DNA from: Micrococcales bacterium
GTDB taxonomy: Bacteria > Actinomycetota > Actinomycetes > Actinomycetales > Cellulomonadaceae
Direction: 5' to 3'
DNA length: 46,685 nt
Assembly: GCA_009779195.1 (NCBI GenBank)
Contig: WRET01000020.1
Coordinates: 1 to 46,685, forward strand
In this document: in pieces, positions 1,467 through 46,186 of the stretch
Layout: every line of letters begins with the position of its first letter
Position numbering within the stretch: position 1 is the stretch's first letter
The notes under the pieces: model-generated
Databases searched by the model: none
What the model was told of the DNA's origin: nothing
What the model saw: the letters and a program-made list of their open reading frames with translations, nothing else
Translations under genes and position numbers: made by a program

Positions 1467-3407
1467 CTATGCGTTCCACGTCACGGCGAAGATGGTCTGT
1501 GCCGGCACGGCCAGACGAGGAGCTCCGCCCTGGCAGTCCACGGTGGCCGTCCGCCGCTTGGAGTCCGGGCCCAACAGCTCGACCTGGGCCTGGCACACCG
1601 CGCCGCTGATGGTCACCTGCTGGGCGCGGTCAGACTTGTTCACCCCGAGCAGCACCCGTTTCGAGCCTTCGCCCAGCTGGACCGCATCCACCTCGAACGA
1701 CGTGTTGCTCGACTGGTACACCTGCCCGCCCCAGTGGTCCGAGATGAACTGCTGGGCCGCACCGACCGGTTTCACCTTGGTGCCGGACTCGTTGAGCATC
1801 CCCTTCGGGTAGCTCCCTTCGTCGGCGATCTTGAACCAGTTCAGCACCTCCAGCGTGCCGTCCGCCGAAGAGTTGACCACCACCGACGTCCACCACAGCG
1901 CCGCGTACTGGGTGTCTTGCTCGTAGGGGCTCAGGTCGGTGCCCGAGGAGATGTTGGTCTGGTCGATCAGCAGGCTCTTGGCCGGCCGGCCGTCTGGGCC
2001 TGTGCCCACCATGTCTGCCGCCGCCTTGATCGAGTCACGGTACTGCCGGGTCGCCAGCAGGTCGCGCACGGCCCATTCGTGCCAGGCCACCGCGTCGATC
2101 CGGTCGCCGTAGGTGTTCAGCAGCTGCTGGGTCCACACGATGCCCCGGTTGGCCGCAAAGTTGCTGTCGGTGCGGAACGGCGCGCCGACGAACCGCGAGC
2201 TGGCGGGCACAGCGACCCGCACCCCAGCCTCCCGTGCTCCGGATGTGCTCTCCAGGCGGCGCAGTGCGCTGTCGAAGTAGGCAGCGTACGCGGCGTAGGT
2301 GGTGAAGTTCAGGTTCGGTTCGTCAGCGAACGACAGGTAGTGCGTCCCACCGTTGACCTGCTTCATCGTGGACACGAACTTGTCCACCCCGCTGGCGGCC
2401 GCACTGGTGCTGATCACCGAGCTGCGGTTCGTCCCGGCGAGCAGCGTCACGTCGGTGGTGATGCCCATCGTCTGCTTGTAGTACTTGCGGAACGAGACCT
2501 CGTTGGCGGCGCCCGCGTCGTGGAAGGTGTAGTAGCTGGCCGAGTCCAGGCCGAGGCTGTTCATGGTCGGCACCGCGCTGGCAGGCGGGGCGTAGTACGG
2601 CATGGCCACACCCACGTGCGGGGACGGCCCGACCTTCGTGGTGCCCACGGTCACCGTAGCCTGCCCGGTCGGCAGCGCCAAGGGGTGCAGGTGCTCGGCC
2701 TTCGGTGCGAAGAGGTTCGCCGTGCCGTCCAGCCAGAACGCGGCCTTGCCCGAACCGCCGAACGTCACACGCCACACCTGGTCAGTCGCCGAGACCGGCA
2801 ACGACACCTTGTCGTACTGGGGGTACTGGCTGTACGAGCGCAACGCCAGGTTCGCAGACGTGTTGTCCGAGACCCGCACGGCCTGCATCGAGCTGACCCC
2901 GCCGTGGTACTTCCCGCACAAGGTCGCCTGCTGGTTCGCGCCCACCCGGAAGTAGAGCTGTGTGCCCGCCGCCAGCTGGGCGGTGGGGTGCACTTTCGTC
3001 GGTTCCAGCTGGATCGCGGTGTTCGGCCCAGCGGTCACCTGGTAGCTGCGGAAGCTGTAGCCCGGCACAGCCAGGGTGTAGTCCCCGGCGGCCTTCGCCA
3101 GGTTCAGGGTGCGTGAGGACGCCGCTGTCCCGGCCGGGATGTCGACCTGGGCAGACAACGAACCCGCCGGGTTCACCAGGTACAGCTGTTCAGCGTTGCC
3201 GTCGGCCGCCCACACCGGCTTCCAGTCCACACTGACCGTCTCGTCAGCGCCGGCCGACAGCCAGACGTGCCCCGCGCGCACCATGCCAGTACCGCTGAGC
3301 AGCGGCGTCGTGCTCGCTGCCTGGGCCGGTGGCGGTGTCGACACCGCCACCAGTCCGACAGCCAACGCCAGTGCTGTGACGATCGCGAGAGTGTGACCTC
3401 GTCTCAT
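1467..3407 (-). CDS. secreted GH39-like (clan GH-A-like) protein with probable loss of the nucleophile
   Basis: 646 residues. I chose ATG 3407 because GGAG lies 7 nt upstream and it gives a clean signal peptide (MRRGHTLAIVTALALAVGL, cut near PAQAA). The longer in-frame start at 3500 adds only a basic stretch. Residues about 35-270 look like beta-sandwich repeats; from about 280 a TIM-barrel-like part follows. FADEPNL (about 360-366) resembles the NEPN acid/base motif of GH39, with E363 in the catalytic place. WHEW is at about 442-445, like the conserved His region on a later strand. At the place of the GH39 nucleophile (T-E-W-N) this protein has LLIDQTN (about 479-485), so no Glu is seen. Fold and family are my inference from motif order; activity is doubtful. 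Secreted and monocistronic, with its own hairpin downstream. Confidence 0.6.
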   Translation of the reverse strand: MRRGHTLAIVTALALAVGLVAVSTPPPAQAASTTPLLSGTGMVRAGHVWLSAGADETVSVDWKPVWAADGNAEQLYLVNPAGSLSAQVDIPAGTAASSRTLNLAKAAGDYTLAVPGYSFRSYQVTAGPNTAIQLEPTKVHPTAQLAAGTQLYFRVGANQQATLCGKYHGGVSSMQAVRVSDNTSANLALRSYSQYPQYDKVSLPVSATDQVWRVTFGGSGKAAFWLDGTANLFAPKAEHLHPLALPTGQATVTVGTTKVGPSPHVGVAMPYYAPPASAVPTMNSLGLDSASYYTFHDAGAANEVSFRKYYKQTMGITTDVTLLAGTNRSSVISTSAAASGVDKFVSTMKQVNGGTHYLSFADEPNLNFTTYAAYAAYFDSALRRLESTSGAREAGVRVAVPASSRFVGAPFRTDSNFAANRGIVWTQQLLNTYGDRIDAVAWHEWAVRDLLATRQYRDSIKAAADMVGTGPDGRPAKSLLIDQTNISSGTDLSPYEQDTQYAALWWTSVVVNSSADGTLEVLNWFKIADEGSYPKGMLNESGTKVKPVGAAQQFISDHWGGQVYQSSNTSFEVDAVQLGEGSKRVLLGVNKSDRAQQVTISGAVCQAQVELLGPDSKRRTATVDCQGGAPRLAVPAQTIFAVTWNA

Positions 3408-3565
3408 AGTCCGTCTCCATAGGTTGTGAGCGGTGGCACGCACGCGCCATCGGGTGCGCGCGCCGTCGTCGAGCCCTCGAGGCTCTTGTGCGCGCGCCAC
3501 ATGGGACGACCATATGAGACCGGTAACAACCCCCCGTCCTGTTCAGCGTTCCAACCCTGAAACAC

Positions 3566-3605
3566 GTGTAACAACCTCGTCACACGTGTGACGATGTTGT
3601 TACAC
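3566..3605. promoter_or_regulatory. 40-bp near-perfect palindrome, probable operator
   Basis: Outer arms GTGTAACAAC and GTTGTTACAC flank a perfect 16-bp core, CGTCACACGTGTGACG. Only one base pair of twenty fails (3576 with 3595). The half-site GTAACAAC occurs again at 3523-3530, 45 bp away on the same strand as the left arm. The site is about 160-200 bp upstream of the GH39-like start codon (3407), so a repressor or activator site for that gene is the simplest reading. As RNA it could also fold into a long hairpin downstream of the DUF11 gene. I do not recognise the cognate regulator. Confidence 0.55.
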
Positions 3606-3638
3606 CCGTCCCGAGCCTCAAAGACTGAGCGTTCCGCC

Positions 3639-3666
3639 GAGGCCTGACGTTGCCAGGTCAGGCCTC
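3639..3666 (-). terminator. stem-loop downstream of the large DUF11 gene
   Basis: GAGGCCTGAC (3639-3648) pairs perfectly with GTCAGGCCTC (3657-3666) around an 8-nt loop, about 100 bp past the stop codon of the gene ending at 3770. No T-tract follows. Confidence 0.5.
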
Positions 3667-3769
3667 ACCGGAAGGCCCAGGCCTTAGACCAGCACGAGGA
3701 CGAGCCGCGTTCTGGGGTCGCTGGCTCGACGCGCTGGTCGAGCAGACGTGGCCGCAGCTCACGTGTCGG

Positions 3770-6700
3770 TTATGCCCTTGTCGCGACGGGCGGGGGGCGG
3801 GGGTCGGTGGCGACGGTCGCGTCGCGGGTGGTCGAGGTGGGTTGGGGGCGCCAGGGGGCGTGTGGTTCGACGGTGTGGGGTGGACGGGTGGTGCGGGATG
3901 TTGGCCTGGGTGTGCCGGGAGGGGTGGTGGGCCTCCAGCGGGCTGGAGCGGTCGGTGCCAGCTGGGCGACGTCGGTGCACAGGGACGTGGACCACAGACG
4001 GTGCCATGGCTGGCCTGAGGTGCACGGTCTGGTACGTCGGTCGCGTCGTCGCTGGTCAGCGGGCACGGCTGGCTTGGCGGCACTCCGCGAGACGGTGTCG
4101 ACGGGGGCGTCGGAGGCATGACGACCCTGGACGAGCGGCTGAGCAGGCTCGACGTCGTCGGGGGCGGCTGTGTGGGCGTGGCGGCCTCGGGCTTCGACAG
4201 CGGTGGGGGCGTCGACGGGTGCCTGGTTGGAGCGCCGACCCCGTGGCGGTGCTCCAGTGGTCGAGTCAGTGGTGTGACGGCCTTGGGCATGCGCAGGTCT
4301 GGGCGTGGTGACCAGGGCAGCTGTGCTGGCGTGACGGCCGCCGATCGCCGCGACAGGGGTCTGTGTGCCCTGGTGACGGCCGTGCGAAGGTGTCAGTTCG
4401 GCAGTGGCAACGGGGACAGCCTCCCCGGGTGCGGGTGGCGTCGAGGCGGCCACGGTGTCGGCCACGGCTTGGTGTGTGTGACGGCCGTGGGTGGTCGGTG
4501 CAGGGTGGTCGGTGCTGTCGACGGGGGCGGTGCTCGCGTGGCGGCTGCGGGTGGTCAGGTGTGGCGCGGCGGCCTCGTCGTGGATTTGTTCGGTGGGCGA
4601 AACAATGGGTTGGACTGCGTGACGAGCCCGGTCGGAGCGGGTGTCGGCGCAGACGGTGTCCACTGCGGTGGTGCTGGTGTGGCGCCCGTGCACGACGGTT
4701 GGCTCTGGACGTGGCTGGGGGACGCGCTCCAGCGCAGGGGACATGAAGCACTCGGCCCACCGGCGGGCGAGCTCGTCGGAGATGACCGGGGACGACGTGT
4801 CTGGCGTGGTGGCTGGCGCACCGCGGTGTGTGGTTGGCGTCGGGTCTGTCGGGCAGGCGGCAGCACGCACGTCGTGGATTTGTTCGGTGGGCGAAACAAT
4901 GGGTGGGGCTGCGTGGCGAGCCTGGCTGGGTCGGGTGTCGGCTTCTACGGCCAGGTACGGTGGCAGCGGGTGTGTGGTTGGCGTCAGGTCGGCGGTGGTG
5001 CTGGCGTGGCGGCCGTGTGCGACGGTCGGCTCTGGACGTGGCTGGGGGACGTGCTCGAGTGCGGTCGAAGACCAGGTGGCAAGCTCGGCCCATGCGCGGG
5101 CGACGACGGGTGCCGCGACGACCGGGGCCGACGGGTCTGGCGCGGAAGGTGCGGTGCACGGCTGCGGTGGCGCTGTGCTCGTGGCGGGACTTCGCGTGTG
5201 GTCGGGGGACATCGTCGCCTCCTGCACCTGGTGGTCGGGCGTGTGGCACATGGTGGTCTCCTTGGTCGGGACCGCGCGGTGGCGGCCGTGGGCTGGAGCG
5301 ACCTGGACTGCAAAGGTTGGGCTGCTGGTGAGCGAACCGACGACGGCTGTGTCTGGCGCGGTCGGGCGTGCGGACCGGGCTGGGCGGGGGCGTCGGCGGA
5401 ACCGCGGGGCCTGGTACAGGCTGACCGCGACGGCGGTGATACCAGGGGCGAGCAGCAGTGCGACGGTGAGCAGGACGAACGCGCCGGACGTGCCGGTGCG
5501 GGCGAGAGGTCCGAGCGGACGCAGCTGGTCGCCACGTCTGGTGGTGCTGCCTGTACCGTTGCCGTTCCTGTCGTCGGTGTTTCCCCAGGCTGCGCTGTTC
5601 GCCCCATCGTTGCCGGCACCGGTGCCGTTGTTGTCCAAGGGGTACCCCTGGGTGCCGCCGTTGCCGTTGCCGCCCCCGTTCCCGTTTCCGCCGTTCCCGT
5701 TCCCGTTGTCGCCCCCGCCGCCCCCGCCATGGCCCTTACCCCCACCGTGGCCCTTACCTCCGCCGTGACCCTTGCCTCCGTCACCGGGGCCGGTACCCGC
5801 GCCGCCTGGACGACGCCCGTTGCCGTTGCCCCCGTTCCCGTTCCCGCTGTTGTCGAAAGAGATCCTCACGGTGTCGGAGCCGGAGACGGTGTCGCCGTCG
5901 GGGAGGGTGCCTGCGGCAGTGACCGTGGACAGGACCTCGCCCGCGTCGATGTCTTCTTCGGTGATGGTGTAGGTGAACTCGCAGGACACGGTTTCGCCAG
6001 GGGCCAGCTGGTCCCACTCGCACGACGCTGGATCCATGCCGGGCAGCAGGCTGTCGGCCACCGACACGTCAGAGGCTGTGGTGTTGCCGGTGTTGGTGAC
6101 AGTGATCCGGAAACGCACGTGGTCACCAGCCTTGGTCCCTCTGGGCACCGAGACCTCGTACGACGTGGTCACCTCCAGGCCGGAGGCCTGGGGCACGGGC
6201 ACGACCCACTCGTCGGAGGCGGACAGCTGCTCTGACGAACCCGGGGGCAGGCCGGTCGCGGTCGCGGTGCTGGTGATCTCACCTGCGTCGATATCCGCTT
6301 GGGTGAGGGTGTAGGCGAGCTCGCAGACCACGTCTTGGCCAGGCGCCAGCTGGTCCCAGGTGCACGACGCCGGTTCCACGCCGGGCAGCGGGTCGGTGAG
6401 CGTGACGTCTGCGAGGGTGACGTGACCACCGTTCGTGACGGTGAACAGCAGGCGCACGACATCCCCGGCCGTGACCCCTCCGGCCACGGGCAGGTCGTAC
6501 GACGTGGTCACGTACAGGTCGTGCGTGTGGGGTGCCGACACAACCCACGGGTCGGCGCCGGACACGTGCTGCGACGAGCCCGGGGGCAGCCCAGTGGCAG
6601 TCGCCGTGCTACCCACCCGTGCGGCGTCGACGTCGGCCTGGGTGAGGGTGTAGGTGGTGTCGCAGACCACGTTCTGACCAGGTGCGAGGTGGTCCCAGGT

Positions 6701-9700
6701 GCACGACGACAGGTCGAGGCCGACCAGGGGGTCGGCGAGCACCACATCGGACATCGTGGTGTTGGAGATGTTCGTCACGGTGAACCGCAGATCCACCGTG
6801 TCACCAACCTTGGCGTCGATGAGCACCGGCGGGTCAGGCGCCGTGGTCACATACAGGCCGAGGGTGTGAGGGATCGTCACGGTCCAGTCTTCGGTGGTGA
6901 ACACCTCGGTCGACGAACCTGGCGGCAAACCCTCAGCGGACGCGGTGCTGGTGATCTCACCTGCGTCGATGTCGGCCTGGGTCAGGGTGTAGACGGTTTC
7001 GCAGACCACGTCCTCGCCGGGGGCCAGCGAGGCCCATTCGCACGAGGCCGGGTGCAGGCCGGGCAGCGGGTCGGCGAACGTCACGTTCGACACGGTGGTG
7101 TTGCCGGTGTTCGTGATGGTGAAATGCACGAGCGCGTCGTCGCCGGCTGTGGTCCCCGACAGGTCGTACGTCATGGTCACGGCCAGGCTCGAGAGGTGGT
7201 CGAGGTCGACATCCCAGTCGTCGGAGGCGGTGACCGGGGTCGTCGACGAGCCTGGGGGCAGGCCCGTGGCGGTCGCAGTGCTGCCGACCGTCGCCGCGTC
7301 GACGTCGGCCTGGGTCAAGGTGTAGACGGCTTCGCAGATCACGTCTTCGCCGGGGGCCAGCCAGTCCCAGTCGCAGTACGACAGCTGCATACCAGGCAAC
7401 CGGTCGTCGACGGTGACGTCGAAGAGGGTGGTGTTGCCGGTGTTCGTGACGGTGAAGCGCAAGAGCACGTCGTCGCCGGCGTTGTGCCCCAGCACGGCGT
7501 ACGCTGCCGTCACGTCCAGGCCGAGCCTGTGGGGAAGGTCGACAGTCCAACTGTCGGAGGCCGACACGGGTGCCGTCGACCGCGGCGCGAACCCTGTGAC
7601 GACCGCGGTGTTGAGTACCTCACCAGCGTCGATGTCGTCCTGGGACAAGACCAGGACCGCTGTGGCGGTGATCGACTGGCCGGGAGCGAGCTCTTCGCCG
7701 AGCCCCGGCCACGTGGGGTAGTCCACGCCTGCGGGGAACAGCCCGTCGTCGATCTGCACACGGTCGAGGGTGACGGTCCCGGTGTTGGTCACGGCGAACG
7801 TGTACGCCACCTCGTCACCAGGTGTGGCGTCGACCACCTCGACGGGGCCCTGTTTGGCCAGCGACAGCTCTGGCCGGAACGTCGTGGTGGTGGTCTCCGA
7901 GTCGATCGCCGACGCATAGCCGTCGTTGGGGGTCTTTCCCAGCGCTTGGGCGGTGTTGACCACAAAACCGGTGTCCAGGTCAGCCTGGGTCATGGTGTAC
8001 ACACCGTTGGCGGTCACGGACTCACCAGGGTCCAGCACACCAGACCACGACGGAAACGTCACCGAGTCCAAGACAGGGTCCAGCACGTCCAGGTCGCTGA
8101 TGGGGACGTTGCCGTAGTTGGTGATCGTGAACGTGTAGCCCACCGGGTCGCCTGCCATGGCAGCGGCGGCCTGCGCAGCGTCGACGGTCTTGACCAGCTC
8201 GAGCGAGAGACCAGGTTCCAGCACGACGGTGAACGAAGCGTCGTCGGTGACGGTGGTGCCGTCGTAGACACCGCTGGCTGCCGCGTTGTTCACCACGACG
8301 CCAGCGCTGATGTGGGCCTGGGCGACCGAAGCGCCTCCGTGTGCGGTGACTGCCTGGCCGGGGGCGAGCGTGGCCCATCCGCTAGGTGGTACCAGGCTGG
8401 TCAGCAACGGGTCGGTCAGGGCGACGTTGGTCAGGTCGACGTTGCCGTTGTTGACGACCAGGAAGTCGTACCCGAGCAGGTCGCCAGGCCTGGCGGCGGC
8501 GAGCTTGTCAGGGTCGCCGGTCTTGGTCAGCACGACCGACGGGGTCGGAGGGGCTGGCCACATCGCGGTGTCGGTGTCGGTGACCGTGACACCGGCGGGA
8601 GACTCAGCCCTGGCAGTCGCCGTGTTGTACACGCTACGTGCGGTGACGTCGGCGGGTGTCAGGATGTAGGTGCCGGTCGCGACGACGGACTGGCCGGGAG
8701 CCAACGTCCCCGCCGGTCCTGGCCAGGTCCCGAACGTCACGCCCGAGAGCTTGGGGTCATCGACACCCACCTGGGATACCGAGACGTTACCTGTGTTGGT
8801 CACCGTGAACACGTAACGGAGCTGGTCGCCGGACACGGCGACGTCCGGGTCTGGCAACACCGGCGCGATCTTGGTCAAGGCGATGGACGCGTCCTGGTCG
8901 AGCGCGACGGTCGCGGTGGTCGCAGCCGTGATGGTGTCGCCGTCGTAGTCGGTGCCTTCGACGCTGGCGATGTTGCGCACCGACCCTGCGTCGATATCAG
9001 CGCGGGTGATCCGGTACGAACCGGTCGCACCGACGAGCTGTCCAGGTGCCAAGATGCCGGGGACACCAGGCCAGGGGCCGAACGCGGCATCCCCCAGCGA
9101 CGGGTCTGTGAGGATGATGTCGCTGATGGTGGCGTTGCCGTCGTTGGTGATGGTGAACGTGTACCGGACCAGGTCGCCAGGTTTGGGGTTGGCGATGGAC
9201 GAGGGGCTGGCGACCTTCTCCAGGACCAGGTCAGGGCCGGGGACCAGAGCCAGGTGCGCGGTGGTGTGGTCGTCGAACCTCGTGGGGTCGCCGGGGTGGG
9301 CGGGGTCAGGCAGAGGGTTGCCCAGCGAGTCGACAGCCACGGCGTGTATCTCGCGGCCGCTGGCGGTGGCGTGGGCTGAAGCGGCGTTGTCAACCCCGCC
9401 GAGGTCCACGTCGAGCTGGGTCAGCCTGTACGAGGCGGTGCATGTGGTGGTCCCGCCGGGGGCGAGAGACCCGGGCGGGCAGGTCACAGGTGACAGGTCC
9501 GCGAGGGTGTCGATGACGGTGACAGCGCTGACCGCGACGGTGCCGGTGTTCGTCACGGTGAACGTGTAGTTCGCCCAGTCCCCCGCGACGCCTTGGGCCC
9601 CACCCAACGACACGGCTTTGCGCACGGTCAGGCCTGCGACCGGAACCGTGGACCCGGCCAGGGGCTGGGGTGCTTGGTCGAGGGTGAGCAGGACCCCGTT

Positions 9701-11563
9701 GGGGTCGACGAACTCCCCAGCAGCGTCCACCGCATAGGCCGAACCAGAGACCCCGTCTGTGCTGATGCCCACAGCACTGGCGGTGTTGCGCAGGGCCCGT
9801 CGTGCCAGGACGTCGGCGACCTGGGCGGTGTAGGTGGCGGTGCACACCATATGTGCTCCACCGACCAGGGTCGTGGCCGGGCAGGTGATCTGTGGTGCGG
9901 GGCCTGTGCTGGTGAAGCCTGCCCAGGTGACAGCCACGTTGTTGACGGTCATGGCTGCGACGTTGGACACGATGATGTCGTAGTGCACCTCTTGGCCCGG
10001 TGCGGTGACCAGGTCGGTGCTCGGTACGGTGCGTAGGGTCAGCCGTGGCACGGCCACGTCGACGATGGTGCCGTACAGGTCGGGGTCTTCTGCCGAGGAG
10101 AAGTCGGTGAATGCCCAGGTGTCGATTTGGGAGTTGTCGCCCCAGTAGTCGGCCAGGACGTTGCTGCCGTCGCCGTTGAAGGCGCCCCACTTGTGCGTGG
10201 GCGAGGCCACGCCGAAGCTCTGCGAGGCGGTGGCGGTCACCGACGGGGACACCCCGCCGATGCGGGGAGCCGCCGACTGGGCGATAAGGGTGTCGTCCCA
10301 GGCGAGGGGTTGTTTGCCCGTGGTGCCAGCCGCACCGATGATCTTGTCCCACTGCTGGCCGTCGATGTATTCGGTGTCGAACAGCACCGAGTGCAGCTCG
10401 TCGGTCGTGAGCAGGTGCACCTGGGCGGAGTTGACCGCCTCGATCTTGGTGACCACGTTGCCGGCCGCGTCGCGCCCGTCCCACACGAAGGTGCGCGTGG
10501 TCAGCGCGTCCACAGCGGTGAACGGGATTTGAAGGTCGACCGGGTCGTCGTAGGACCCGTTGAAGTTCGTGTCGATCTCCAGCGTGTACGAGCCCACGTA
10601 GTGCTCGGTGGTCACCGCGAACGTGCCGGCGAACGGTGCGGCGATCCCCCCGGCGCGTGTGAAGGTCACCACAGGTTTGGACGGTGCCTGGTACACCGGC
10701 ATGACGCTCATCATCTCGCCGGTCATCGGGTCCTTGGCCCGTTGGGGCAGCACGGCCGTGTCGGGCATGGACACGAAGATGTTGTAGAACTGCCCGCACT
10801 CTTCTGACGGGCCCGCGTACACGTCGCGCCCCTCGGCCGCGTCGATGGCCAGCAGCGAGTACGAGGTGTACGCGGCAACGCACTGGCCGACCTGCCGCAC
10901 TCCGGTGGAGCTGAACGAGAACTCTGAGCCCCACCCGTTGTAGTTGAACAGCGTCATCTTGTACAACGCGCCCGAGGGCAGCACGACCCACATGTTCAGG
11001 TCCGTGTTGAAGGCGCTGCCGCCTTGGATCAACCCCAGCGTGCGTGTCCACACCCGCCCTGTTTGTGGCACGCCTCCTGAGAACACTGTCAGGTCCCAGG
11101 TGGTGTAGTTGTACGCGTTGCCTGCGGTGCCTGTGCTGACGGTCCACGACACCGAGTACACGCCGGTGGTCGCCGCGACGAAAGAGCGGTCGTAGGGGGT
11201 GGTGCTGCCCATGACGTCGAGGTCGGTGTAGAGCACCACCCCGTCCGGGTCGCGGTACGTCGCTGAGTACAGGCTCCCTGCTGTCGTGTACACACCCCCG
11301 ACCGTGGTGCTGAACGTGATGGTCTCTCCGGCTCTGGCGTACGCGTACACCGTCCACACGCGGCCGGGGTTGCCGCTGATGCCCCAGGTCGTGCCCGTCA
11401 ACGTCTCAGCGTGAGACCGGACCGTGCCGACCACACCCACCACGCCCAGCACCAGCACCACAGAGAGCAGCAGCCGAGGCAGGGGGCCGATGGTCCGCTT
11501 GGCCGCAGGCGCGCCGGGAGCGGCGGACCCCGCGGGGGCCGCACCGAAGACCGCTCTCCGCAT
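3770..11563 (-). CDS. giant LAXTG-anchored DUF11-repeat surface protein with a long GRH-repeat tail
   Basis: 2597 residues, ATG 11563, GGAGG 10 nt upstream. Order: basic N-terminus and signal/TM (about 29-50, cut near RSHA/ET); a unique region (about 52-510) that I do not recognise; about 12 DUF11-type repeats (about 520-1900, each with a core like AGDxVxxxFTVTNTGN and later LAPGQxV...TQADIDAG); a Gly/Asn-rich spacer (about 1903-1990) with GKGHGGG repeats; LARTG (2020-2024), a hydrophobic helix and FRRRPRPAR. Known class E sortases use LAXTG and such proteins normally end here. This one continues for about 550 residues rich in Pro, Thr and Ala, with a dozen GRH/ARH motifs (HGRHASTT, QGRHTTDS, RGRHAHTA) and a repeated unit of about 100 residues. 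The tail frame keeps high third-position GC to its stop, which argues that it is translated. By topology the tail would be cytoplasmic. Likely role: adhesion or wall structure; tail function unknown. Confidence 0.8.
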   Translation of the reverse strand: MRRAVFGAAPAGSAAPGAPAAKRTIGPLPRLLLSVVLVLGVVGVVGTVRSHAETLTGTTWGISGNPGRVWTVYAYARAGETITFSTTVGGVYTTAGSLYSATYRDPDGVVLYTDLDVMGSTTPYDRSFVAATTGVYSVSWTVSTGTAGNAYNYTTWDLTVFSGGVPQTGRVWTRTLGLIQGGSAFNTDLNMWVVLPSGALYKMTLFNYNGWGSEFSFSSTGVRQVGQCVAAYTSYSLLAIDAAEGRDVYAGPSEECGQFYNIFVSMPDTAVLPQRAKDPMTGEMMSVMPVYQAPSKPVVTFTRAGGIAAPFAGTFAVTTEHYVGSYTLEIDTNFNGSYDDPVDLQIPFTAVDALTTRTFVWDGRDAAGNVVTKIEAVNSAQVHLLTTDELHSVLFDTEYIDGQQWDKIIGAAGTTGKQPLAWDDTLIAQSAAPRIGGVSPSVTATASQSFGVASPTHKWGAFNGDGSNVLADYWGDNSQIDTWAFTDFSSAEDPDLYGTIVDVAVPRLTLRTVPSTDLVTAPGQEVHYDIIVSNVAAMTVNNVAVTWAGFTSTGPAPQITCPATTLVGGAHMVCTATYTAQVADVLARRALRNTASAVGISTDGVSGSAYAVDAAGEFVDPNGVLLTLDQAPQPLAGSTVPVAGLTVRKAVSLGGAQGVAGDWANYTFTVTNTGTVAVSAVTVIDTLADLSPVTCPPGSLAPGGTTTCTASYRLTQLDVDLGGVDNAASAHATASGREIHAVAVDSLGNPLPDPAHPGDPTRFDDHTTAHLALVPGPDLVLEKVASPSSIANPKPGDLVRYTFTITNDGNATISDIILTDPSLGDAAFGPWPGVPGILAPGQLVGATGSYRITRADIDAGSVRNIASVEGTDYDGDTITAATTATVALDQDASIALTKIAPVLPDPDVAVSGDQLRYVFTVTNTGNVSVSQVGVDDPKLSGVTFGTWPGPAGTLAPGQSVVATGTYILTPADVTARSVYNTATARAESPAGVTVTDTDTAMWPAPPTPSVVLTKTGDPDKLAAARPGDLLGYDFLVVNNGNVDLTNVALTDPLLTSLVPPSGWATLAPGQAVTAHGGASVAQAHISAGVVVNNAAASGVYDGTTVTDDASFTVVLEPGLSLELVKTVDAAQAAAAMAGDPVGYTFTITNYGNVPISDLDVLDPVLDSVTFPSWSGVLDPGESVTANGVYTMTQADLDTGFVVNTAQALGKTPNDGYASAIDSETTTTTFRPELSLAKQGPVEVVDATPGDEVAYTFAVTNTGTVTLDRVQIDDGLFPAGVDYPTWPGLGEELAPGQSITATAVLVLSQDDIDAGEVLNTAVVTGFAPRSTAPVSASDSWTVDLPHRLGLDVTAAYAVLGHNAGDDVLLRFTVTNTGNTTLFDVTVDDRLPGMQLSYCDWDWLAPGEDVICEAVYTLTQADVDAATVGSTATATGLPPGSSTTPVTASDDWDVDLDHLSSLAVTMTYDLSGTTAGDDALVHFTITNTGNTTVSNVTFADPLPGLHPASCEWASLAPGEDVVCETVYTLTQADIDAGEITSTASAEGLPPGSSTEVFTTEDWTVTIPHTLGLYVTTAPDPPVLIDAKVGDTVDLRFTVTNISNTTMSDVVLADPLVGLDLSSCTWDHLAPGQNVVCDTTYTLTQADVDAARVGSTATATGLPPGSSQHVSGADPWVVSAPHTHDLYVTTSYDLPVAGGVTAGDVVRLLFTVTNGGHVTLADVTLTDPLPGVEPASCTWDQLAPGQDVVCELAYTLTQADIDAGEITSTATATGLPPGSSEQLSASDEWVVPVPQASGLEVTTSYEVSVPRGTKAGDHVRFRITVTNTGNTTASDVSVADSLLPGMDPASCEWDQLAPGETVSCEFTYTITEEDIDAGEVLSTVTAAGTLPDGDTVSGSDTVRISFDNSGNGNGGNGNGRRPGGAGTGPGDGGKGHGGGKGHGGGKGHGGGGGGDNGNGNGGNGNGGGNGNGGTQGYPLDNNGTGAGNDGANSAAWGNTDDRNGNGTGSTTRRGDQLRPLGPLARTGTSGAFVLLTVALLLAPGITAVAVSLYQAPRFRRRPRPARSARPTAPDTAVVGSLTSSPTFAVQVAPAHGRHRAVPTKETTMCHTPDHQVQEATMSPDHTRSPATSTAPPQPCTAPSAPDPSAPVVAAPVVARAWAELATWSSTALEHVPQPRPEPTVAHGRHASTTADLTPTTHPLPPYLAVEADTRPSQARHAAPPIVSPTEQIHDVRAAACPTDPTPTTHRGAPATTPDTSSPVISDELARRWAECFMSPALERVPQPRPEPTVVHGRHTSTTAVDTVCADTRSDRARHAVQPIVSPTEQIHDEAAAPHLTTRSRHASTAPVDSTDHPAPTTHGRHTHQAVADTVAASTPPAPGEAVPVATAELTPSHGRHQGTQTPVAAIGGRHASTAALVTTPRPAHAQGRHTTDSTTGAPPRGRRSNQAPVDAPTAVEARGRHAHTAAPDDVEPAQPLVQGRHASDAPVDTVSRSAAKPAVPADQRRRDRRTRPCTSGQPWHRLWSTSLCTDVAQLAPTAPARWRPTTPPGTPRPTSRTTRPPHTVEPHAPWRPQPTSTTRDATVATDPRPPPVATRA
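4577..5070 (-). repeat. in-frame duplication within the GRH tail
   Basis: An identical 34-nt segment occurs at 4577-4610 and 4871-4904 (294 nt apart, encoding the IVSPTEQIHD region). A second matching block, encoding VPQPRPEPTVxHGRHxSTT, occurs near 4690-4730 and 5017-5057 (offset about 327 nt). Both offsets are multiples of three, so the duplication kept the frame. This fits selection on protein sequence. Confidence 0.75.
5210..5263 (-). promoter_or_regulatory. two strong internal ribosome binding sites with in-frame ATGs
   Basis: AAGGAG (5263-5258) is 6 nt before ATG 5251, and GGAGG (5222-5218) is 5 nt before ATG 5212. Both ATGs are in the frame of the 2597-codon gene (codons 2105 and 2118), just after the Arg-rich end of the anchor. 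Translation from them would give the GRH tail as a free protein of about 480-493 residues. These sites are better than the one at the gene's own start. Confidence 0.6.
5636..5860 (-). repeat. Gly/Asn/His-rich stalk repeats
   Basis: Short in-frame repeats encoding GNGNGG and three GKGHGGG units (around 5719-5780). They sit between the last DUF11 repeat and LARTG, where a flexible segment would cross the peptidoglycan. Confidence 0.75.
9816..11425 (-). repeat. paralogous repeat, copy A (N-terminal region of the larger DUF11 gene)
   Basis: About 1.6 kb nearly identical, read by eye, to 15355-16970. Long exact runs occur, for example around 10127-10290 versus 15666-15829. The two copies diverge sharply into the signal peptide on one side and the DUF11 repeats on the other. 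This marks a recent duplication or ongoing gene conversion. Confidence 0.85.
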
Positions 11564-12143: not shown

Positions 12144-15100
12144 CTACCTCAGGACGTTCCTGCGGTGTCGAACGGCTACGGCACCACAGCCGGCACTGAC
12201 GAGCAGCAACGTCACGGCGACCAGGAGCACCCGCGCAGGTAGTCCGGTGGGCGCGAGCACCTTCGTCACACGACCGAGCGGGCTGTGTTCTTCGCTGTGG
12301 GCACCATGACGGTTCCCGTCATGGGTTCGGTCGCCCTGACCGTCGTTGTACTCGCTGGTCTTCCCCGCGTCTTCCCCGTTCTTGCCATCGTCGTCGCGGT
12401 CGTCGTTCTTGCCGTCGCCGTCTTCGTCTCCGTCGTTGTCCCGGTCGTTGTCCCCGTCGTTGTCTTCGTCTCCGTTGTTGTCTCCGTCGCCTTCCCCGTC
12501 GTTGTCTCCGTCACCGTCCCCGTCGTTGTCGCCGTCGTTGTCCCCGTCGCCGTCGTTGTCTCCATCGTTGTCTTCGTCCCCGTCGCCGTCGCCGTCTCCA
12601 TCCCCGTCTCCGTCGCCGATCTCGTCGTTGGCGCTGATGAAGGTGACCGTGATGGCTTCTTCGCTGGTGAGGGAGGTACCGCCCGGGGTGGCACCGCGGA
12701 CTGTGGCGGTGCTGACCACAGTGCCTGCGGCGATGTCGTCATCAGTGAGGGTGTAGATGCCGTCGCAGACGACCTCTTCGCCGGGGGCCAGCCATTCCCA
12801 CGCGCAGGCGGTCAGGTCGATACCGGGCAGGTTGTCGGTGACCTTCACGTCGTCGATGGTGACGTTGCCGGTGTTCTTCACCACGAACCTGAAGTAGACG
12901 TGGTCACCTGGTGTGGCGCCTTCAGGGATCTCGACGTCGTAGGGGGTGCTGATATCCAGACCAGGCGACGGCGGCAGGCCCGTGGTCCACGAGCTGGGTG
13001 CCACCGGGGCCGGCCCAGCAGTGCCGCCCAGGGTCCGGTCAGGTGGGGTCCCGGTCACTGTGGCGTCGTTGACCAGCACGCCAGAGTCGATCTCCTCTTG
13101 GGTCAGCACATGGTCGGCGGTGGCGGTGACCGACTCTCCGGGTGCGAGGTTTTCAGGTGTGCCGGGCCACGGGCCGTAGTCCACCCCGCCGGGAATCATC
13201 GCGTCGTCGATCTGCACGCCGGTCATGGTGACCGTCCCGGTGTTGGTCACGGTGAACGTGTACTGCACCTCGTCACCAGCGCGGGCGTCGGCCAGGGCAG
13301 AAGCGTCGCCAGTCTTGGCCATCTCCAGCTGCGGCTCGAACTCGGTCGTGCCGAGGGCGGTGCCGATACCCGAGCTGTTCCCGCCCTGGGGGGTCGTCCC
13401 CAGGGCCTGCCCCACCATGGCCACACCACCGGCGTCCAGGTCTGCTTGGGTGACGGTGTAGGTGCCGGTGTACTGCACGCTCTGCCCCGGTGCCAGCACA
13501 CCGGCCACCCCTGGCCAGCCACCCGTCACCGTCAGTCCCTGCGCCAAGGGGGCGTCCAGGTCGACCTCGTCGAGAGTGACGTTGCCGGTGTTGGTGACGG
13601 TGAACGTGTACGTCAGCACGTCACCTGGTCTCGCGCCGGCCAGGTTGGGGGTCGTGGTCCCGTCGACCGTCGCCTCGACCTCCAGCCCTGGGGTCGGTTC
13701 GAGCGGGACCGTGCCGCTGGCCTCGACCGACAGGCTGGCTCCCGAAGCGGCGGGGGCTGTGGCGGTGGCCGTGGCTGTGTCGGCGAGGAACCCCTCGTCG
13801 ATATCGGCTTGGGTCAAGGTGTACGTGGCTGTGGCGGTGACCGACTCGCGTGGGGCGAGCACCCCTGCCGCCCCAGGCCACGAGCCGAACGTGATGGCCC
13901 CTGGCGGCAGCAACGGGTCTTGGAGGTCCACGCCGGTCAGTTCTGTGGTGCCGTTGTTGGTCAGGACGAACGTGTAGGTGATGGTGTCACCAGGAAGGGC
14001 CCCGGTGAGCTGAGCGGGGGACGCGGTCTTGGTCAGCAGCAGCGACGGGTCGACGACCCCTGGCCACCAATAGGCGGTCACCGGGCCACTGGCGACAGTG
14101 CCACCGGAGGGGGTGGTCGCGGTGGCCTCGGCGGTGTTTTCCACCTTTCCGTTGGGGACGGCGACGGTGTCCACGTCGGCTTGGGTCAGGAGGTACTCGC
14201 CGGTGGCGACCACCGACTGGCCGGGAGCGAGGCTTCCCTCGGTGCCGGGCCAGGTGCCGAACGTGATGGTGGCCAGTGCCGGGTCGTCGATACCGATTCC
14301 GTGCAGGGTCACGTTGCCGGTGTTGGTGACAGCGAACGTGTAGTCCACCACCTCGTCGACGGCGGCAACCAGCGGGGTGGGCGAGGCGTACTTGATCAGT
14401 GTGAGCCCCAGGCTGGCGGGGAGGGAGACAGTCGTCCCTGCGGTCGTGGTGACCGTGGTGCCGGCGGGGGTGCCGTTGGGGTGGACACCGGTGGCGGTCG
14501 CAGTGTTGGCCAGCCCCCCAGCGTCGATATCTGCTTGGGTCAGCCGGTGCGACCCGGTTGCGGTGACCGACTGCCCAGGCAGCAACGTGCCCGGGACCGC
14601 AGGCCCAGGCCACGTGCCGAATGCCACGTCGCTGAGCTGGGGGTCAGACAGCGACACGTCGTCGAGCGTGCCGTTGCCGGTGTTGGTGACGGTGAAGGTG
14701 TAGGTGACAAGGTCGCCGGGCGAGGCGTCGGGGATCGACGTCGGGTCGGCGGTTGCGGTGAGGCCGATCGACGGTGCGGGGTCCAGCCCCAGGTGGGCGA
14801 GCGAGTGGGTGGAGAACTTCGTGGGGTCGGTGGGGTGAGCAGGGTCGGCGACCGCCTGGCCTGTTCCGTCGACCGCGACAGCGTGGACCTGTACCCCGCC
14901 GCCGGTCAGCGCCACGCCGCTCGCGCCGTTGTCCACGCCGCCCATGTCCACGTCGTGCTGGGTCACGGTGTACGAAGCGGTGCACGTTGTGTTCGCCCCG
15001 GGAGCGAGGGCGACCTGGAGGCAGGTCACCGGCGACAAGCCTTCGAGATAGTCCTGGACGGCAAGGGTGTTGAGGGGCACGGTGCCGGTGTTGGAGACGG

Positions 15101-17078
15101 CGATGGTGTAGTTCGCGGTTTCTCCTGCCTTGCCCAGGGCAGGTGGCGCGAGGGCCACGGTTTTGCGCAGGCTGAGCCCTGCCACGTTCACCACCGTGGT
15201 GACCAGGGGCTGGGGTTCGACCCCGGATACCAGGGGCACACCGTTGGGGTCGACGAACTGCCCAGCAGCGTCCACCGCGAAAGCGACCACGGTGGAACTG
15301 TCCGTACCGATACCCGCGACAGTGGTCGTCGCCTGGAGCGCCTGGTGTGCCAGGACGTCGGCGACCTGGGCGGTGTAGGTGGCGGTGCAGACCATATGTG
15401 CTCCGCCGACCAGGGTCGTGGCCGGGCAGGTGATCTGTGGTGCGGGGCCTGCTGCGGTGAACCCTGCCCAGGTGACAGCCACGTTGTTGACGGTCATGGC
15501 TGCGACGTTGGACACAGTGATGTCGTAGTGCACGGTCTGGCCTGGTGCGGTGACCACAGTGGTGTCTGCTGCGGTGCGCACGGTCAGCCGTGGGATGGCC
15601 ACGTCGACGATGGTGCCGTACAGGTCGGGGTCTTCGGCGGAAGAGAAGTCGGTGAACGCCCAGGTGTCGATTTGGGAGTTGTCGCCCCAGTAGTCGGCCA
15701 GGACGTTGCTGCCGTCGCCGTTGAAGGCGCCCCACTTGTGCGTGGGCGAGGACACGCCGAAGCTCTGCGAGGCGGTGGCGGTCACCGACGGGGACACCCC
15801 GCCGATGCGGGGAGCCGCCGACTGGGCGATGAGGGTGTCGTCCCAGGCGAGGGGTTGTTTGCCCAAGGTGCCAGCCGCACCGATGATCTTGTCCCACTGC
15901 TGGCCGTCCATGTATTCGGTGTCGAACAGCACCGCGTGCAGCTCGTCGTTCGTACGCAGGTGAACCTGGGCGGAGTTGACCGCCTCGATGTTGGTGACCA
16001 CGTTTCCGGCCGCGTCGCGTCCGTCCCACACGAACGTGCGTGTGGTCAGCGCGTCCACAGCGGTGAACGGGACGGCCAGGTCGACCGGGTCGCTGTAGGA
16101 CCCGTTGAAGTTCGTGTCGATCTCCAGCGTGTACGAGCCCACGTAGTGCTCGGTGGTCACCGTGAACGTCCCGGCGAACGGTGCGGCGATCCCCCCGGCG
16201 CGGGTGAAGGTCACCACAGGTTTGGACGGTGCCTGGTACACCGGCATGACGTTCATCATCTGGCCGGTCATCGGGTCCAACGCGCGTTCGGGCAGGTTGG
16301 CCGTGTCGGGCATGGACACGAAGATGTTGTAGAACTGCCCGCACTCTTCTGACGGGCCCGCGTACATACCAGTGCCCACGGCTGCGTCGACGCCCAGCAG
16401 CGAATAGGAGGTGTACGCGGCGGTGCACTGGCCGACCCGCCGGACTCCGGTGGAGCTGAACGAGAACTCTGAGCCCCACCCGTTGTAGTTGAACAGCGTG
16501 ATCTTGTACAACGCGCCCGAGGGCAGCACGACCCACATGTTCAGGTCCGTGTTGTAGGCGGTGCCTCCTTGGATCAACGACAGTGCGCGTGTCCACACCC
16601 GTCCTGTTTGTGGCACGCCTCCTGAGGAGACTGTCAGGTCCCAGGTGGTGTAGTTGAACGCGTTGCCTGCGGTGCCTGTGCTGACGGTCCACGACACCGA
16701 GTACACACCGGTGGTCGCCGCGACGAACGAACGGTTGTAAGGGGTGGTGCTGCCCATGGCGTCGAGGTCTACATAGAGAACCGTGCCGTCCGGGCCGCGG
16801 TATGTGGCCGAGTACAGGCTCCCTGCTGAGGTGTACACAGCCCCGGCCGTGGTGCTGAACCTGATGCTCTCGCCGGCTTTGGCGTACGCGTACGCCGTCC
16901 ACACGCGGCCGGGGTTGCCGCTCAGCCCCCAGGTCGTGCCCGTCAACGTCTCGGCGCGAGACCGGACCACTCCGACCACACCGACAACCAACACCACGAC
17001 AAGCATGAGGTAGACGTAGCGCGCGGCCGGGTGCGCAGACCTGCCTGCATGTGCGGGTCCGAAGATCGCTGTGCGCAT
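12144..17078 (-). CDS. LAXTG-anchored DUF11-repeat surface protein with acidic D/G/N stalk
   Basis: 1644 residues from ATG 17078. This start has GGAGG 6 nt upstream and aligns with the paralog's start (MRTAIFGPA versus MRRAVFGAA); the longer in-frame ATG at 17135 lacks both. Order: signal/TM about 25-42, cut near RSRA/ET; unique N-terminal region about 45-505, nearly identical to the paralog; about eight DUF11 repeats (about 511-1480) with cores such as PGDVLTYTFTVTNTGN; an Asp/Gly/Asn repeat stalk (about 1483-1565, DGDGDNDGDND style) that could bind divalent cations; LAPTG at 1608-1612, a hydrophobic helix and the end RHRRNVLR. Unlike its neighbour it stops where LAXTG proteins normally stop. 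Expected at the cell wall, attached by a class E sortase not encoded in this window. DUF11 arrays are known as extended stalks of surface proteins. Function of the N-terminal region unknown. Confidence 0.85.
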   Translation of the reverse strand: MRTAIFGPAHAGRSAHPAARYVYLMLVVVLVVGVVGVVRSRAETLTGTTWGLSGNPGRVWTAYAYAKAGESIRFSTTAGAVYTSAGSLYSATYRGPDGTVLYVDLDAMGSTTPYNRSFVAATTGVYSVSWTVSTGTAGNAFNYTTWDLTVSSGGVPQTGRVWTRALSLIQGGTAYNTDLNMWVVLPSGALYKITLFNYNGWGSEFSFSSTGVRRVGQCTAAYTSYSLLGVDAAVGTGMYAGPSEECGQFYNIFVSMPDTANLPERALDPMTGQMMNVMPVYQAPSKPVVTFTRAGGIAAPFAGTFTVTTEHYVGSYTLEIDTNFNGSYSDPVDLAVPFTAVDALTTRTFVWDGRDAAGNVVTNIEAVNSAQVHLRTNDELHAVLFDTEYMDGQQWDKIIGAAGTLGKQPLAWDDTLIAQSAAPRIGGVSPSVTATASQSFGVSSPTHKWGAFNGDGSNVLADYWGDNSQIDTWAFTDFSSAEDPDLYGTIVDVAIPRLTVRTAADTTVVTAPGQTVHYDITVSNVAAMTVNNVAVTWAGFTAAGPAPQITCPATTLVGGAHMVCTATYTAQVADVLAHQALQATTTVAGIGTDSSTVVAFAVDAAGQFVDPNGVPLVSGVEPQPLVTTVVNVAGLSLRKTVALAPPALGKAGETANYTIAVSNTGTVPLNTLAVQDYLEGLSPVTCLQVALAPGANTTCTASYTVTQHDVDMGGVDNGASGVALTGGGVQVHAVAVDGTGQAVADPAHPTDPTKFSTHSLAHLGLDPAPSIGLTATADPTSIPDASPGDLVTYTFTVTNTGNGTLDDVSLSDPQLSDVAFGTWPGPAVPGTLLPGQSVTATGSHRLTQADIDAGGLANTATATGVHPNGTPAGTTVTTTAGTTVSLPASLGLTLIKYASPTPLVAAVDEVVDYTFAVTNTGNVTLHGIGIDDPALATITFGTWPGTEGSLAPGQSVVATGEYLLTQADVDTVAVPNGKVENTAEATATTPSGGTVASGPVTAYWWPGVVDPSLLLTKTASPAQLTGALPGDTITYTFVLTNNGTTELTGVDLQDPLLPPGAITFGSWPGAAGVLAPRESVTATATYTLTQADIDEGFLADTATATATAPAASGASLSVEASGTVPLEPTPGLEVEATVDGTTTPNLAGARPGDVLTYTFTVTNTGNVTLDEVDLDAPLAQGLTVTGGWPGVAGVLAPGQSVQYTGTYTVTQADLDAGGVAMVGQALGTTPQGGNSSGIGTALGTTEFEPQLEMAKTGDASALADARAGDEVQYTFTVTNTGTVTMTGVQIDDAMIPGGVDYGPWPGTPENLAPGESVTATADHVLTQEEIDSGVLVNDATVTGTPPDRTLGGTAGPAPVAPSSWTTGLPPSPGLDISTPYDVEIPEGATPGDHVYFRFVVKNTGNVTIDDVKVTDNLPGIDLTACAWEWLAPGEEVVCDGIYTLTDDDIAAGTVVSTATVRGATPGGTSLTSEEAITVTFISANDEIGDGDGDGDGDGDGDEDNDGDNDGDGDNDGDNDGDGDGDNDGEGDGDNNGDEDNDGDNDRDNDGDEDGDGKNDDRDDDGKNGEDAGKTSEYNDGQGDRTHDGNRHGAHSEEHSPLGRVTKVLAPTGLPARVLLVAVTLLLVSAGCGAVAVRHRRNVLR
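12392..12625 (-). repeat. hexanucleotide-like repeats encoding the D/G/N stalk
   Basis: Imperfect tandem units of GTCxxC type on the plus strand, read on the minus strand as GAC/GAT/AAC/GGC codons. Length is likely to vary between strains by slippage or recombination. Confidence 0.8.
15355..16970 (-). repeat. paralogous repeat, copy B (N-terminal region of the smaller DUF11 gene)
   Basis: Partner of 9816-11425 in direct orientation, offset about 5.54 kb. Recombination between the two copies would delete or duplicate one gene. Confidence 0.85.
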
Positions 17079-17146
17079 GGAATGCCTCCTACCGGGTCGA
17101 ACCGAGTCGACCGAAAACGTACCGACGATGCTCATACTCGTCGGAC

Positions 17147-44638: not shown

Positions 44639-46186
44639 TCATGCCACTTGTTCGACGTCGAAGGCGGCGATGTTGCGGGTCTCGGGGGAGAACTCGACGC
44701 CGATCTGGTAGACCGGGAGTCCTTCGGCGAGGTACTTGTCGGTGTACCGCTGGGTCTGGATCTGGGCCATGGCCGAGCCAGCCGGTGCGGGAGGGACGAC
44801 GTTGAACTCGAACACGAAGATCCCTGTCGCGGTGCGTACTGTCATGTCGACCCGGCCGGTCGACGACGCGTCCTCGGTGATCACCGTCAGTCCGGCGGCG
44901 GCGAAGTAGGCGTAGAACACCGACGCGTAGTACCCCTCGATCCCCCTGATCTGGCTCCTGGTGTGCCAGTTCGTGGGGATGCCGGAGAACATCGCCGACA
45001 CGTAGGCGCGCAACCGGTCGAAGTCCGCTTCAGCAAGCAGGCGGCGCAGGGCGGTCGGGCCAGTCCCAGCAGTCTCGGCGTCCATCGGGCGCAGGTAGTC
45101 CAGCAACGCGGCCGACAGGCTCGTGCGGACCTCGGCGTTGGGGTACTTCAGCCGGTACACGTCTGGAGGCTCGGACCGGTCCGGGTCGATCGTCAGGTAT
45201 CCGGTCTGGAACAACAACGCCACCGTCGACAGGTTCCCCACGTCCAAGATCCCCAGCTGGGTGCTCGACGCCTCCAGGCCAGCCAGCTGGGGCAGGTACG
45301 AACCACGCCGAGCCAACGTCTCCACCAGGAAGCTAGGCGTCGCGGTCTCGAACCAGTAGTGGCCGAACTCCTTGTGGCGGAACAGCAGCAGCACGTCGAA
45401 CGGGTTGTACACGGCCCCCCCGCGCCAGTTGTACCCGTTGTACCACTCGCGGACCTTCTCGCGGTCCAGCCCGTCCAGCTCGGGGGCGAACACTGTGTCG
45501 AGGTCTTCTTCGGTGTATCCGCAGACCGTCGAGTACTGCGGACTCAAGGTGATGTCTTCGAGGTTGTTCAGGCCGGAAAAGATGTTCACCTTGGAGAACT
45601 TCGACACCCCCGTCAGCATGACGAACTTCAGCTGGTCGTCGAGGTCCTTCAGCACTGAGTACAGGTGACGGAGCCCGTCACGCATCTGCTGGGCAGCCTC
45701 GGGGTCGGTGATGATGTCCAGGATCGGCTTGTCGTACTCGTCGACCAGCACCACGACCCGCTGTCCGTACGCAGCCTCGGCGTTGCGGACCAGCATGGAC
45801 AACCTGCCCGGGATCGTCCCCGACCCGGTCGGCACGCCTAGCCGCTGCTCGTTGTCGGCGAGGATCTCGTGGGTCCTTTCGTCCAGACCCTCGCGCGTGG
45901 GCCCCACCCCCGAGGCGAAGCTGATCCTCACCACGGGATACACCGTGCCCCAGTCCCAGGCGTCGTAGCACGCCAAGCCGTCGAACAATTTCTTGTTCCC
46001 AGCGAACATCTCAGCGAGGGTATCCAGGAACAGGCTCTTGCCGAAGCGTCGCGGACGCGATAAGAAATAGTACGAGCCCTGCTCGACCAGCTGCAGGGCA
46101 AACTGCGTCTTGTCGACATAGTAATAGTCTTCAGTCCGGATCCTGCGGAACGACTGGATGCCGATTGGCAGCTTCTTGCGGTCCAC
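44639..46186 (-). CDS. AAA-ATPase / PD-(D/E)XK nuclease-superfamily protein (DUF1703 type)
   Basis: 515 residues from GTG 46186 (GGAGG 4 nt upstream). N-terminal AAA-ATPase_like domain: LPIGIQSFRRIRTEDYYYVD, SRPRRFGKSLFLDTL (Walker A-like RRFGKS, 46-51), VVVLVDEYDKPI (Walker B-like) and FVMLTGVSKFSKVNIFSGLN. C-terminal PD-(D/E)XK region: EGYYASVFYAYFAA, then GRVDMTV (444-450, the Asp) and FVFEFNVV, where E460 is kept but the usual Lys is Asn462. The family is common in accessory regions of bacteria and host-associated genomes; its function is not established. The Lys-to-Asn change suggests reduced or altered nuclease activity. The sequence is otherwise full length. Confidence 0.85.
   Translation of the reverse strand: MDRKKLPIGIQSFRRIRTEDYYYVDKTQFALQLVEQGSYYFLSRPRRFGKSLFLDTLAEMFAGNKKLFDGLACYDAWDWGTVYPVVRISFASGVGPTREGLDERTHEILADNEQRLGVPTGSGTIPGRLSMLVRNAEAAYGQRVVVLVDEYDKPILDIITDPEAAQQMRDGLRHLYSVLKDLDDQLKFVMLTGVSKFSKVNIFSGLNNLEDITLSPQYSTVCGYTEEDLDTVFAPELDGLDREKVREWYNGYNWRGGAVYNPFDVLLLFRHKEFGHYWFETATPSFLVETLARRGSYLPQLAGLEASSTQLGILDVGNLSTVALLFQTGYLTIDPDRSEPPDVYRLKYPNAEVRTSLSAALLDYLRPMDAETAGTGPTALRRLLAEADFDRLRAYVSAMFSGIPTNWHTRSQIRGIEGYYASVFYAYFAAAGLTVITEDASSTGRVDMTVRTATGIFVFEFNVVPPAPAGSAMAQIQTQRYTDKYLAEGLPVYQIGVEFSPETRNIAAFDVEQVA

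Follow-up and report, generated by a model that had tools for sequence, protein, structure and literature searches.

The window, by which we mean the whole stretch of 46,685 nucleotides that was analysed, carries on its reverse strand a composite open reading frame of 2597 amino acids (3770-11563, -) that runs from an export signal through an N-terminal domain, a series of DUF7507 repeats (12 stretches by Pfam in the ectodomain), a Gly/Asn-rich stalk and a LARTG anchor into a tail of GRH motifs. The export signal was judged by inspection as a hydrophobic stretch ahead of SHAETLTG, and a similar one is found in the paralogue described below; a low-confidence structure model of the ectodomain (pLDDT 46) places a helix at 27-44, and the fold matches of this model were set aside given its poor quality. 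The features of a sortase substrate follow one another in the usual order: the sorting motif LARTG at residues 2020-2024 (5492-5506, -), a membrane helix at about residues 2024-2050 (5414-5494, -), modelled by AlphaFold2 at positions 5-31 of the stretch submitted, and the Arg cluster RRRPRPARSAR (5366-5398, -), where sortase substrates usually terminate. The sorting signal of this protein is not C-terminal, and 533 residues, counted from residue 2065, lie beyond the anchor (3773-5371, -); they form a putative cytoplasmic tail of GRH repeats, predicted as disordered, whose delimitation rests on motif counts, homology and pLDDT. The first-pass annotation had described a LARTG motif, a helix and an Arg cluster followed in frame by a tail without a stop codon, as the sequence confirms; its estimate of about 550 residues becomes 533 with the count from residue 2065.

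Next to this gene lies a tandem paralogue of 1663 amino acids (12144-17135, -), which ends after an LAPTG motif without a tail and whose N-terminal domain is 87% identical to that of the composite protein. Downstream of the adhesin pair are encoded a protein of 677 residues (1467-3500, -), which has no match in Pfam and whose N-terminus resembles an export signal, and a beta-helix protein (3-1214, -). A protein with AAA-ATPase_like and PDDEXK_9 domains is encoded at 44639-46186 (-), and a kinase domain was not found among the ten other open reading frames of the window that were scanned.

Two strong hairpins, detected as inverted repeats with arms within 3566-3605 and 3620-3685 (3566-3685, -), are located 85-204 bases past the stop codon of the tailed gene; their folding energies are -35.0 and -53.2 kcal/mol, computed on pieces of 61 and 91 bases with no shuffle control. 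Neither is followed by a clear T-run, no strong hairpin precedes the tail, and the two perhaps mark the end of the transcript. A terminator scan that requires a T-run placed its five sites on the strand opposite the tailed gene and none on that gene's own strand, and a promoter scan of 3300-6000 gave no promoter-like site on either strand.

Motifs, duplication and predicted disorder of the tail

The tail contains 13 GRH-type motifs, including one SRH and one GRR. Nine of these fit [GA]RH[ATV], a number far above that of codon shuffles (n=2000; mean 0.23, maximum 3), and the five other frames of the same DNA have 0 or 1; the dozen or so GRH/ARH motifs noticed at first pass are confirmed. The consensus, common to the window and to the relative described below, is roughly [GA]RHASxAxVD. 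One motif, GRHR at residue 2093, precedes both of the candidate internal starts that are discussed later. With regard to composition, Ala, Pro, Thr, Arg and His are abundant and the pI is 9.05. The AlphaFold2 model of anchor plus tail, obtained from a two-row alignment, has a mean pLDDT of 39.8, with values of 62, 87 and 67 for the first three ten-residue blocks and of 53 or less for the remaining ones; from this model the tail is predicted to be disordered except for the membrane helix and two short helices of low confidence. A Pfam search of the tail at E 0.01 matched 0 families.

An in-frame duplication within the tail had also been proposed, and the alignment of its two copies (5145-4870 and 4809-4576, -) upholds it; the copies show 71% DNA identity and differ by 42 bases in length. 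At the end of both copies, roughly 35 bases are identical (4870-4904, equal to 4576-4610); they encode PIVSPTEQIHD, and here the copies are more alike than in their remainder.

Distribution of the tail and its probable coding character

Searches with the tail by sequence alone gave no homologue in its own genome, in 57 relatives or in plasmids, nor in the protein databases among the 7981 and 7988 candidates with the highest word overlap; these database negatives are weak, given that one of the searches missed the tailed sequence P0001 although its length was admitted, and the other excluded it by length. Matches in the genome G030 (E 0.62) and in contig C13 of the window genome (E 0.0099), where by eye the reading frames resemble pyruvate kinase, were judged to be chance, and so were two profile matches (E 0.013 and 0.023) that contain internal stops. 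A standalone GRH gene was not found by profile search in 395 other genomes of the order, with no more than four candidates scored in each, nor was a standalone GRH protein found elsewhere in the window genome or in the relative; the sensitivity of these searches is limited.

The relative was located through the ectodomain of the tail-less paralogue (P0001; L005 in the scan of GTDB contigs). Its genome, G058, is the metagenome-assembled genome Lab288P3bin128, of the same genus as the window genome; G464, with identical contig coordinates and scores, was taken as the same genome, and P0001, with an overlapping protein and a contig of equal length (6364), as the same sequence as L010, and each was counted once. 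According to a table note in PMC7886697, the prefix Lab in such names stands for the termite Labiotermes labralis, and by this naming pattern the relative would come from the gut of that termite. It has a tail-less gene on contig C140 and a tailed gene on contig C118, in which the frame is open throughout from LGYTG through a hydrophobic stretch and RRRT into a tail of 445 residues, counted from GPHRATRR, with 12 [GA]RH[ATV] motifs (shuffle maximum 3). Over a part of 653 codons the ectodomains of window and relative have an amino-acid identity of 67% (dS 0.79, dN 0.26); the tails are far less alike, with 37% identity in a gapped alignment, and keep the motif. When the window genome was searched with the relative's tail, the window's own tail was absent at E 10; therefore, the case for homology is made by the shuffle test, the motif and the placement of both tails behind an anchor, taken together. 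C140 terminates in the N-terminus of another copy downstream of its tail-less gene, and as far as the contigs reach this agrees with the window, where the tailed gene follows the paralogue; contig C52 terminates in a similar N-terminal piece, and the gaps between contigs are unbridged. The matching tail in a second species makes a frameshift or an assembly error very unlikely. The relative's orthologue of the tandem paralogue, L005, has a normal ending without a tail.

Several other traits of these genes were observed. The stalk of the tandem paralogue is acidic (Asp/Gly/Asn), as is that of L005, and the gene pair of the window differs in stalk charge as well as in the tail. After the relative's tailed gene, at about 5680-5800 of L010, there are short repeats containing GGGGACGGTTCC; translated text like that of these repeats also occurs in L033, near the second sortase of the window genome.

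Ectodomain matches at 1e-8 were obtained in 9 of 396 genomes of the order, including the window's (no more than three candidates scored in each), and in 8 of 221 genomes of the family, including the window's and G464 (no more than six). The distant homologues occupy 15 places in 13 genomes; in two the frame runs off, and the 13 with a readable C-terminus all end 36-60 residues past the first residue of the sorting motif, which in one case, MPRTG, was read by eye. As a base rate, TIGR01167 loci were taken from 39 genomes, the 30 with the best scores and hence no random sample; 29 of them were readable, with a stop 33-45 residues after the L; the window genome has 11 TIGR01167 matches, and the four that were read, one of them already among those 30, end 34-37 residues after the L. 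The objection foreseen at first pass, that homologues all stop after the Arg cluster, applies to the 13 distant ones and the paralogue but not to the closest relative, which has its tail on C118. As far as we searched, the tail appears confined to two species, both of the same genus.

Comparison of the two species makes it very probable that the tail codes for protein. With the last part excluded, the alignment of the tails gave a z of 7.3 in the frame of the gene (60 shuffles per frame pair), against 3.2 and 0.1 in the other same-offset frames and at most 0.1 in six mixed frame pairs; the raw scores are close, 238 in this frame and 232 in the next, with shuffle means of 109 and 185, respectively. 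A stop-free frame of tail length occurred in 0.4% of composition-matched shuffles for the window and in 0.75% for the relative (2000 trials). The codon-usage score per codon is approximately +0.2 to +0.45 in the stalk before the anchor and mostly -0.25 to +0.06 in the tail, and in places within the window tail a reverse-strand frame scores equally high. As the first-pass annotation stated, the window tail has raised third-position GC, and this holds for most of its length. From about position 4063 onward, however, the codon-position pattern is different, and a shift is also seen towards the end of the relative's tail. Between the copies of the duplication, dN/dS is 0.73 in the frame of the gene and 0.81 and 0.84 in the other frames, a weak contrast. 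The codons of the motifs, which were chosen by amino acid, differ at their third bases (as third-base entropy), from which it follows that the motifs are not recent DNA copies, and only that.

The last 95 residues or so are doubtful as coding sequence. There the best z, 2.3, belongs to a frame other than that of the gene, which reaches 1.2, and the assignment is not secure because of the codon-position shift after about 4063, the near-zero codon-usage score and the rival reverse frame. A frameshift and a true C-terminal domain were both considered for this end and neither was established, as no frame pair aligns convincingly; the shared ending DPRPPP was discounted as too short. For residues 2065-2490 it is unlikely that the tail is an artefact.

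Candidate internal starts and the sortases

Two possible internal starts were identified at the beginning of the tail in a scan for Shine-Dalgarno (SD) sequences. The first (5249-5263, -) consists of AAGGAG (5263-5258) and an ATG (5251-5249) at residue 2105, and no counterpart of it was seen in the relative's C118. The second (5207-5223, -) consists of AGGAGG (5223-5218) and an ATG (5212-5210) at residue 2118, and lies in a block, GGAGGCGAYGATGTCC, that is common to window and relative with 15 of 16 bases identical; the aligned ATG of C118 is preceded by GGAGG, a match of 5 bases, at the same scored spacing. An SD sequence with an in-frame start is in this way kept in the one relative, there as a 5-base match. 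The window tail has three in-frame ATGs, and before two of them the SD match amounts to 6 bases, with a spacing scored as 5. For comparison, 71 in-frame ATGs were taken as controls from coding stretches of C118, L005, the paralogue and the tailed gene, and of these none reaches 6 bases and four reach 5; when GTG and TTG are added to the controls, 1 of 446 reaches the 6-base match. In codon shuffles of anchor plus tail (n=5000), at least one such SD/ATG pair appeared in 0.6% and two in none. Within the GGAGGCGAYGATGTCC block the third bases agree at 5 of 5 codons, one of them trivially as an ATG, versus 54% (98/180) in columns of identical residues, bearing in mind that the block is short. Only two species have the tail, and the conservation of the internal start rests in consequence on a single species pair.

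Initiation at the second site would yield a free GRH protein of 480 amino acids with a computed pI of 9.2 (3770-5212, -), and the predicted equivalent in the relative has 405 residues. Given the in-frame SD/ATG pairs at the start of the tail, one of them with a counterpart, some, or even most, of the tail protein may be made independently of the adhesin, in the cytosol. The linker between the anchor and the internal start is free of stops in both species, but so are 47% and 61% of length- and composition-matched shuffles, and an open linker is therefore no proof that the fusion is under selection.

A class E sortase is encoded in each of the two genomes and exceeds the cut-off of NF033747 (247.5 and 231.8 bits); the window genome has a second one besides, which falls below the class cut-offs. 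Class E sortases are reported to use LAXTG (an excerpt of PMC5148588), and the LARTG substrate of the window would be cleaved by this enzyme; the sorting motif of the relative, LGYTG, departs from LAXTG, which makes cleavage by its class E sortase less certain.

The sequence ARHAN was noticed in the cytoplasmic N-tail of the class E sortase, beside the membrane helix (L107, G000:C33:11098-11112; L032). It is present in both genomes with a GRH tail and, by eye, absent after the start in the other readable sortases. As a general feature of class E sortases it was rejected, since [GA]RH occurs, within the part that was read, in only 5 of the 25 loci that could be parsed out of 30 sortase loci; in the window genome it follows a plausible start, and in the four others it lies, by eye, upstream of the start. 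The sortase of G058, read separately from these 25, has ARHAN. In the window's own genome, leaving out the serines TCN, [GA]RHA[SN] is found in 10 places, two of them in the tail and one in the sortase, versus 29 in a backwards control, so that the sharing of a motif by sortase and tail remains a lead.

Possible products of the gene and related systems

An open frame implies that ribosomes coming from the adhesin would continue into the tail, and the internal sites suggest that ribosomes also start there. We tentatively favour a dual-output gene, a reading that is quite possible, in which the locus would encode a membrane-spanning sortase substrate with a cytoplasmic tail of motifs and, in addition, a free GRH protein of about 480 residues. 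From the normal start, a surface adhesin with Ig-like repeats and a LAXTG anchor would be exported, while its C-terminal part, disordered and with repeated [GA]RHASxAxVD-like motifs, would remain in the cytoplasm; cleavage between T and G by the class E sortase would then transfer the ectodomain to the wall, so that a stub with the tail stays in the membrane, and the in-frame internal starts just past the anchor would give the free protein. A short motif that is repeated, spaced and disordered is most readily understood as a multivalent docking array, in this case for a cytoplasmic partner, which the tethered form would bring to sites of adhesin export; the free form would act in the cytosol. 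We infer both products, the cleavage and the docking from these features, and likewise the coupling of the tail to surface assembly that was suggested at first pass. In a further and doubtful step, the adhesin remnant with its cytoplasmic array of 530 residues and the free cytosolic array would compete for the partner or co-assemble with it, the cell would read in this manner the adhesin that is in transit or anchored, and the class E sortase, through ARHAN, may share the same partner.

In favour of two products we count the frame that is open in two species, the z of 7.3, the motif counts, the SD/ATG pairs and the sortases, together with the gene order of the relative and the hairpins that lie after the tail and not before it. 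Against it are counted the near-zero codon usage, the missed search with the relative's tail, the close raw scores (238/232), the single species pair, the first window site without a counterpart, the 5-base site of the relative (equalled by 4 of 71 controls), LGYTG, a linker that may be open by chance, the weak dN/dS, the unmatched last 95 residues or so, the lack of a promoter-like site, and the failure to find a standalone GRH protein in searches of limited sensitivity. A rival reading, that of the first pass, has a single product: the tail would occur in no other form than as the adhesin's cytoplasmic end, the sortase would leave a GRH stub that reports on or localises surface assembly, and the SD/ATG pairs would be due to chance. 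In its favour, the frame is continuous in two species, a class E sortase is present in both, GRHR at residue 2093 precedes both internal starts, so that the motif content begins earlier, and there is a precedent for a membrane remnant of sortase cleavage that is sensed (passages of PMC11502775 and PMC11326707). We consider this rather unlikely; against it, both SD/ATG pairs of the window exceed all 71 control ATGs and one of them has its counterpart in the relative.

The ribosome-binding-like site of the tail, the linker that stays stop-free in 47% and 61% of shuffles, and the existence of a tail-less paralogue and 13 distant homologues, from which the tail is no part of the usual anchor, would all fit an accidental fusion, that is, an adhesin gene that lost its stop codon upstream of a separate GRH gene with its own ribosome-binding site, so that the free protein alone would be of consequence, the fused form being a tolerated by-product. 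Nevertheless, the arrangement is kept in both species across an ectodomain dS of about 0.8, and no standalone GRH gene appeared among the four or fewer candidates scored in each of 395 genomes, nor in the two genomes themselves, which makes such an origin improbable. An artefact, with a tail that does not code or that owes its frame to faulty assembly or a frameshift, could be argued from its low-complexity composition, the weak dN/dS in the duplication, the near-zero codon-usage score and the codon-position pattern that shifts near the tail end in both species; an independent genome with the same architecture and the same motif, whose best match is in the frame of the gene, leaves this barely credible.

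If the large cytoplasmic extension kept in two species is what it appears to be, what a sortase leaves behind can be an independent protein, and the tailed remnant would physically link surface assembly with the cell interior in a direct way; if the internal start is used, one reading frame would yield products both at the wall and inside the cell.

The sorting signal of a sortase substrate is generally regarded as terminal, with a short membrane peptide remaining after cleavage. The standard definition of the signal, as worded in a passage of PMC10107303, includes a positively charged cytoplasmic tail at its end. In searches of open-access literature, judged by titles and the openings of abstracts, no description was found of a sortase substrate with a cytoplasmic extension or remnant of this kind. 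The class E substrates known as chaplins in Streptomyces coelicolor, as presented in the excerpt of PMC5148588, share with the window protein the export signal, the LAXTG motif, the helix, the Arg cluster and the sortase; in class E substrates, in contrast, the sorting signal is C-terminal with a short charged end, and the window protein has 533 residues more. The DUF7507/DUF11 surface proteins of Actinobacteria share the ectodomain architecture, and among them are distant homologues of the N-terminal domain that carry sorting motifs; all 13 readable ones stop 36-60 residues past the first residue of the sorting motif, whereas the window protein continues.

Sensing of a sortase C-peptide in Streptococcus gordonii was reportedly described by Hall et al. 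in 2019. In this bacterium the membrane-embedded end of the sorting signal that is left after cleavage acts as a signal, according to passages of PMC11502775 and PMC11326707; in S. agalactiae, as stated in a passage of the former, the C-peptide is not the signal in the case studied. The shared idea is that a post-cleavage remnant carries information inward, but the remnant of S. gordonii is short and is sensed by a membrane histidine kinase, whereas that of the window would be a large cytoplasmic array of motifs. In-frame internal starts that give long and short forms are known for CheA, ClpB and SctQ. With these, the candidate starts of the window share an SD sequence and a start codon inside a longer frame, and a short form without the N-terminal part; unlike them, the short form of the window would be limited to the cytosolic tail, the rest of the protein being exported and anchored to the wall, and the two products would reside in two compartments.
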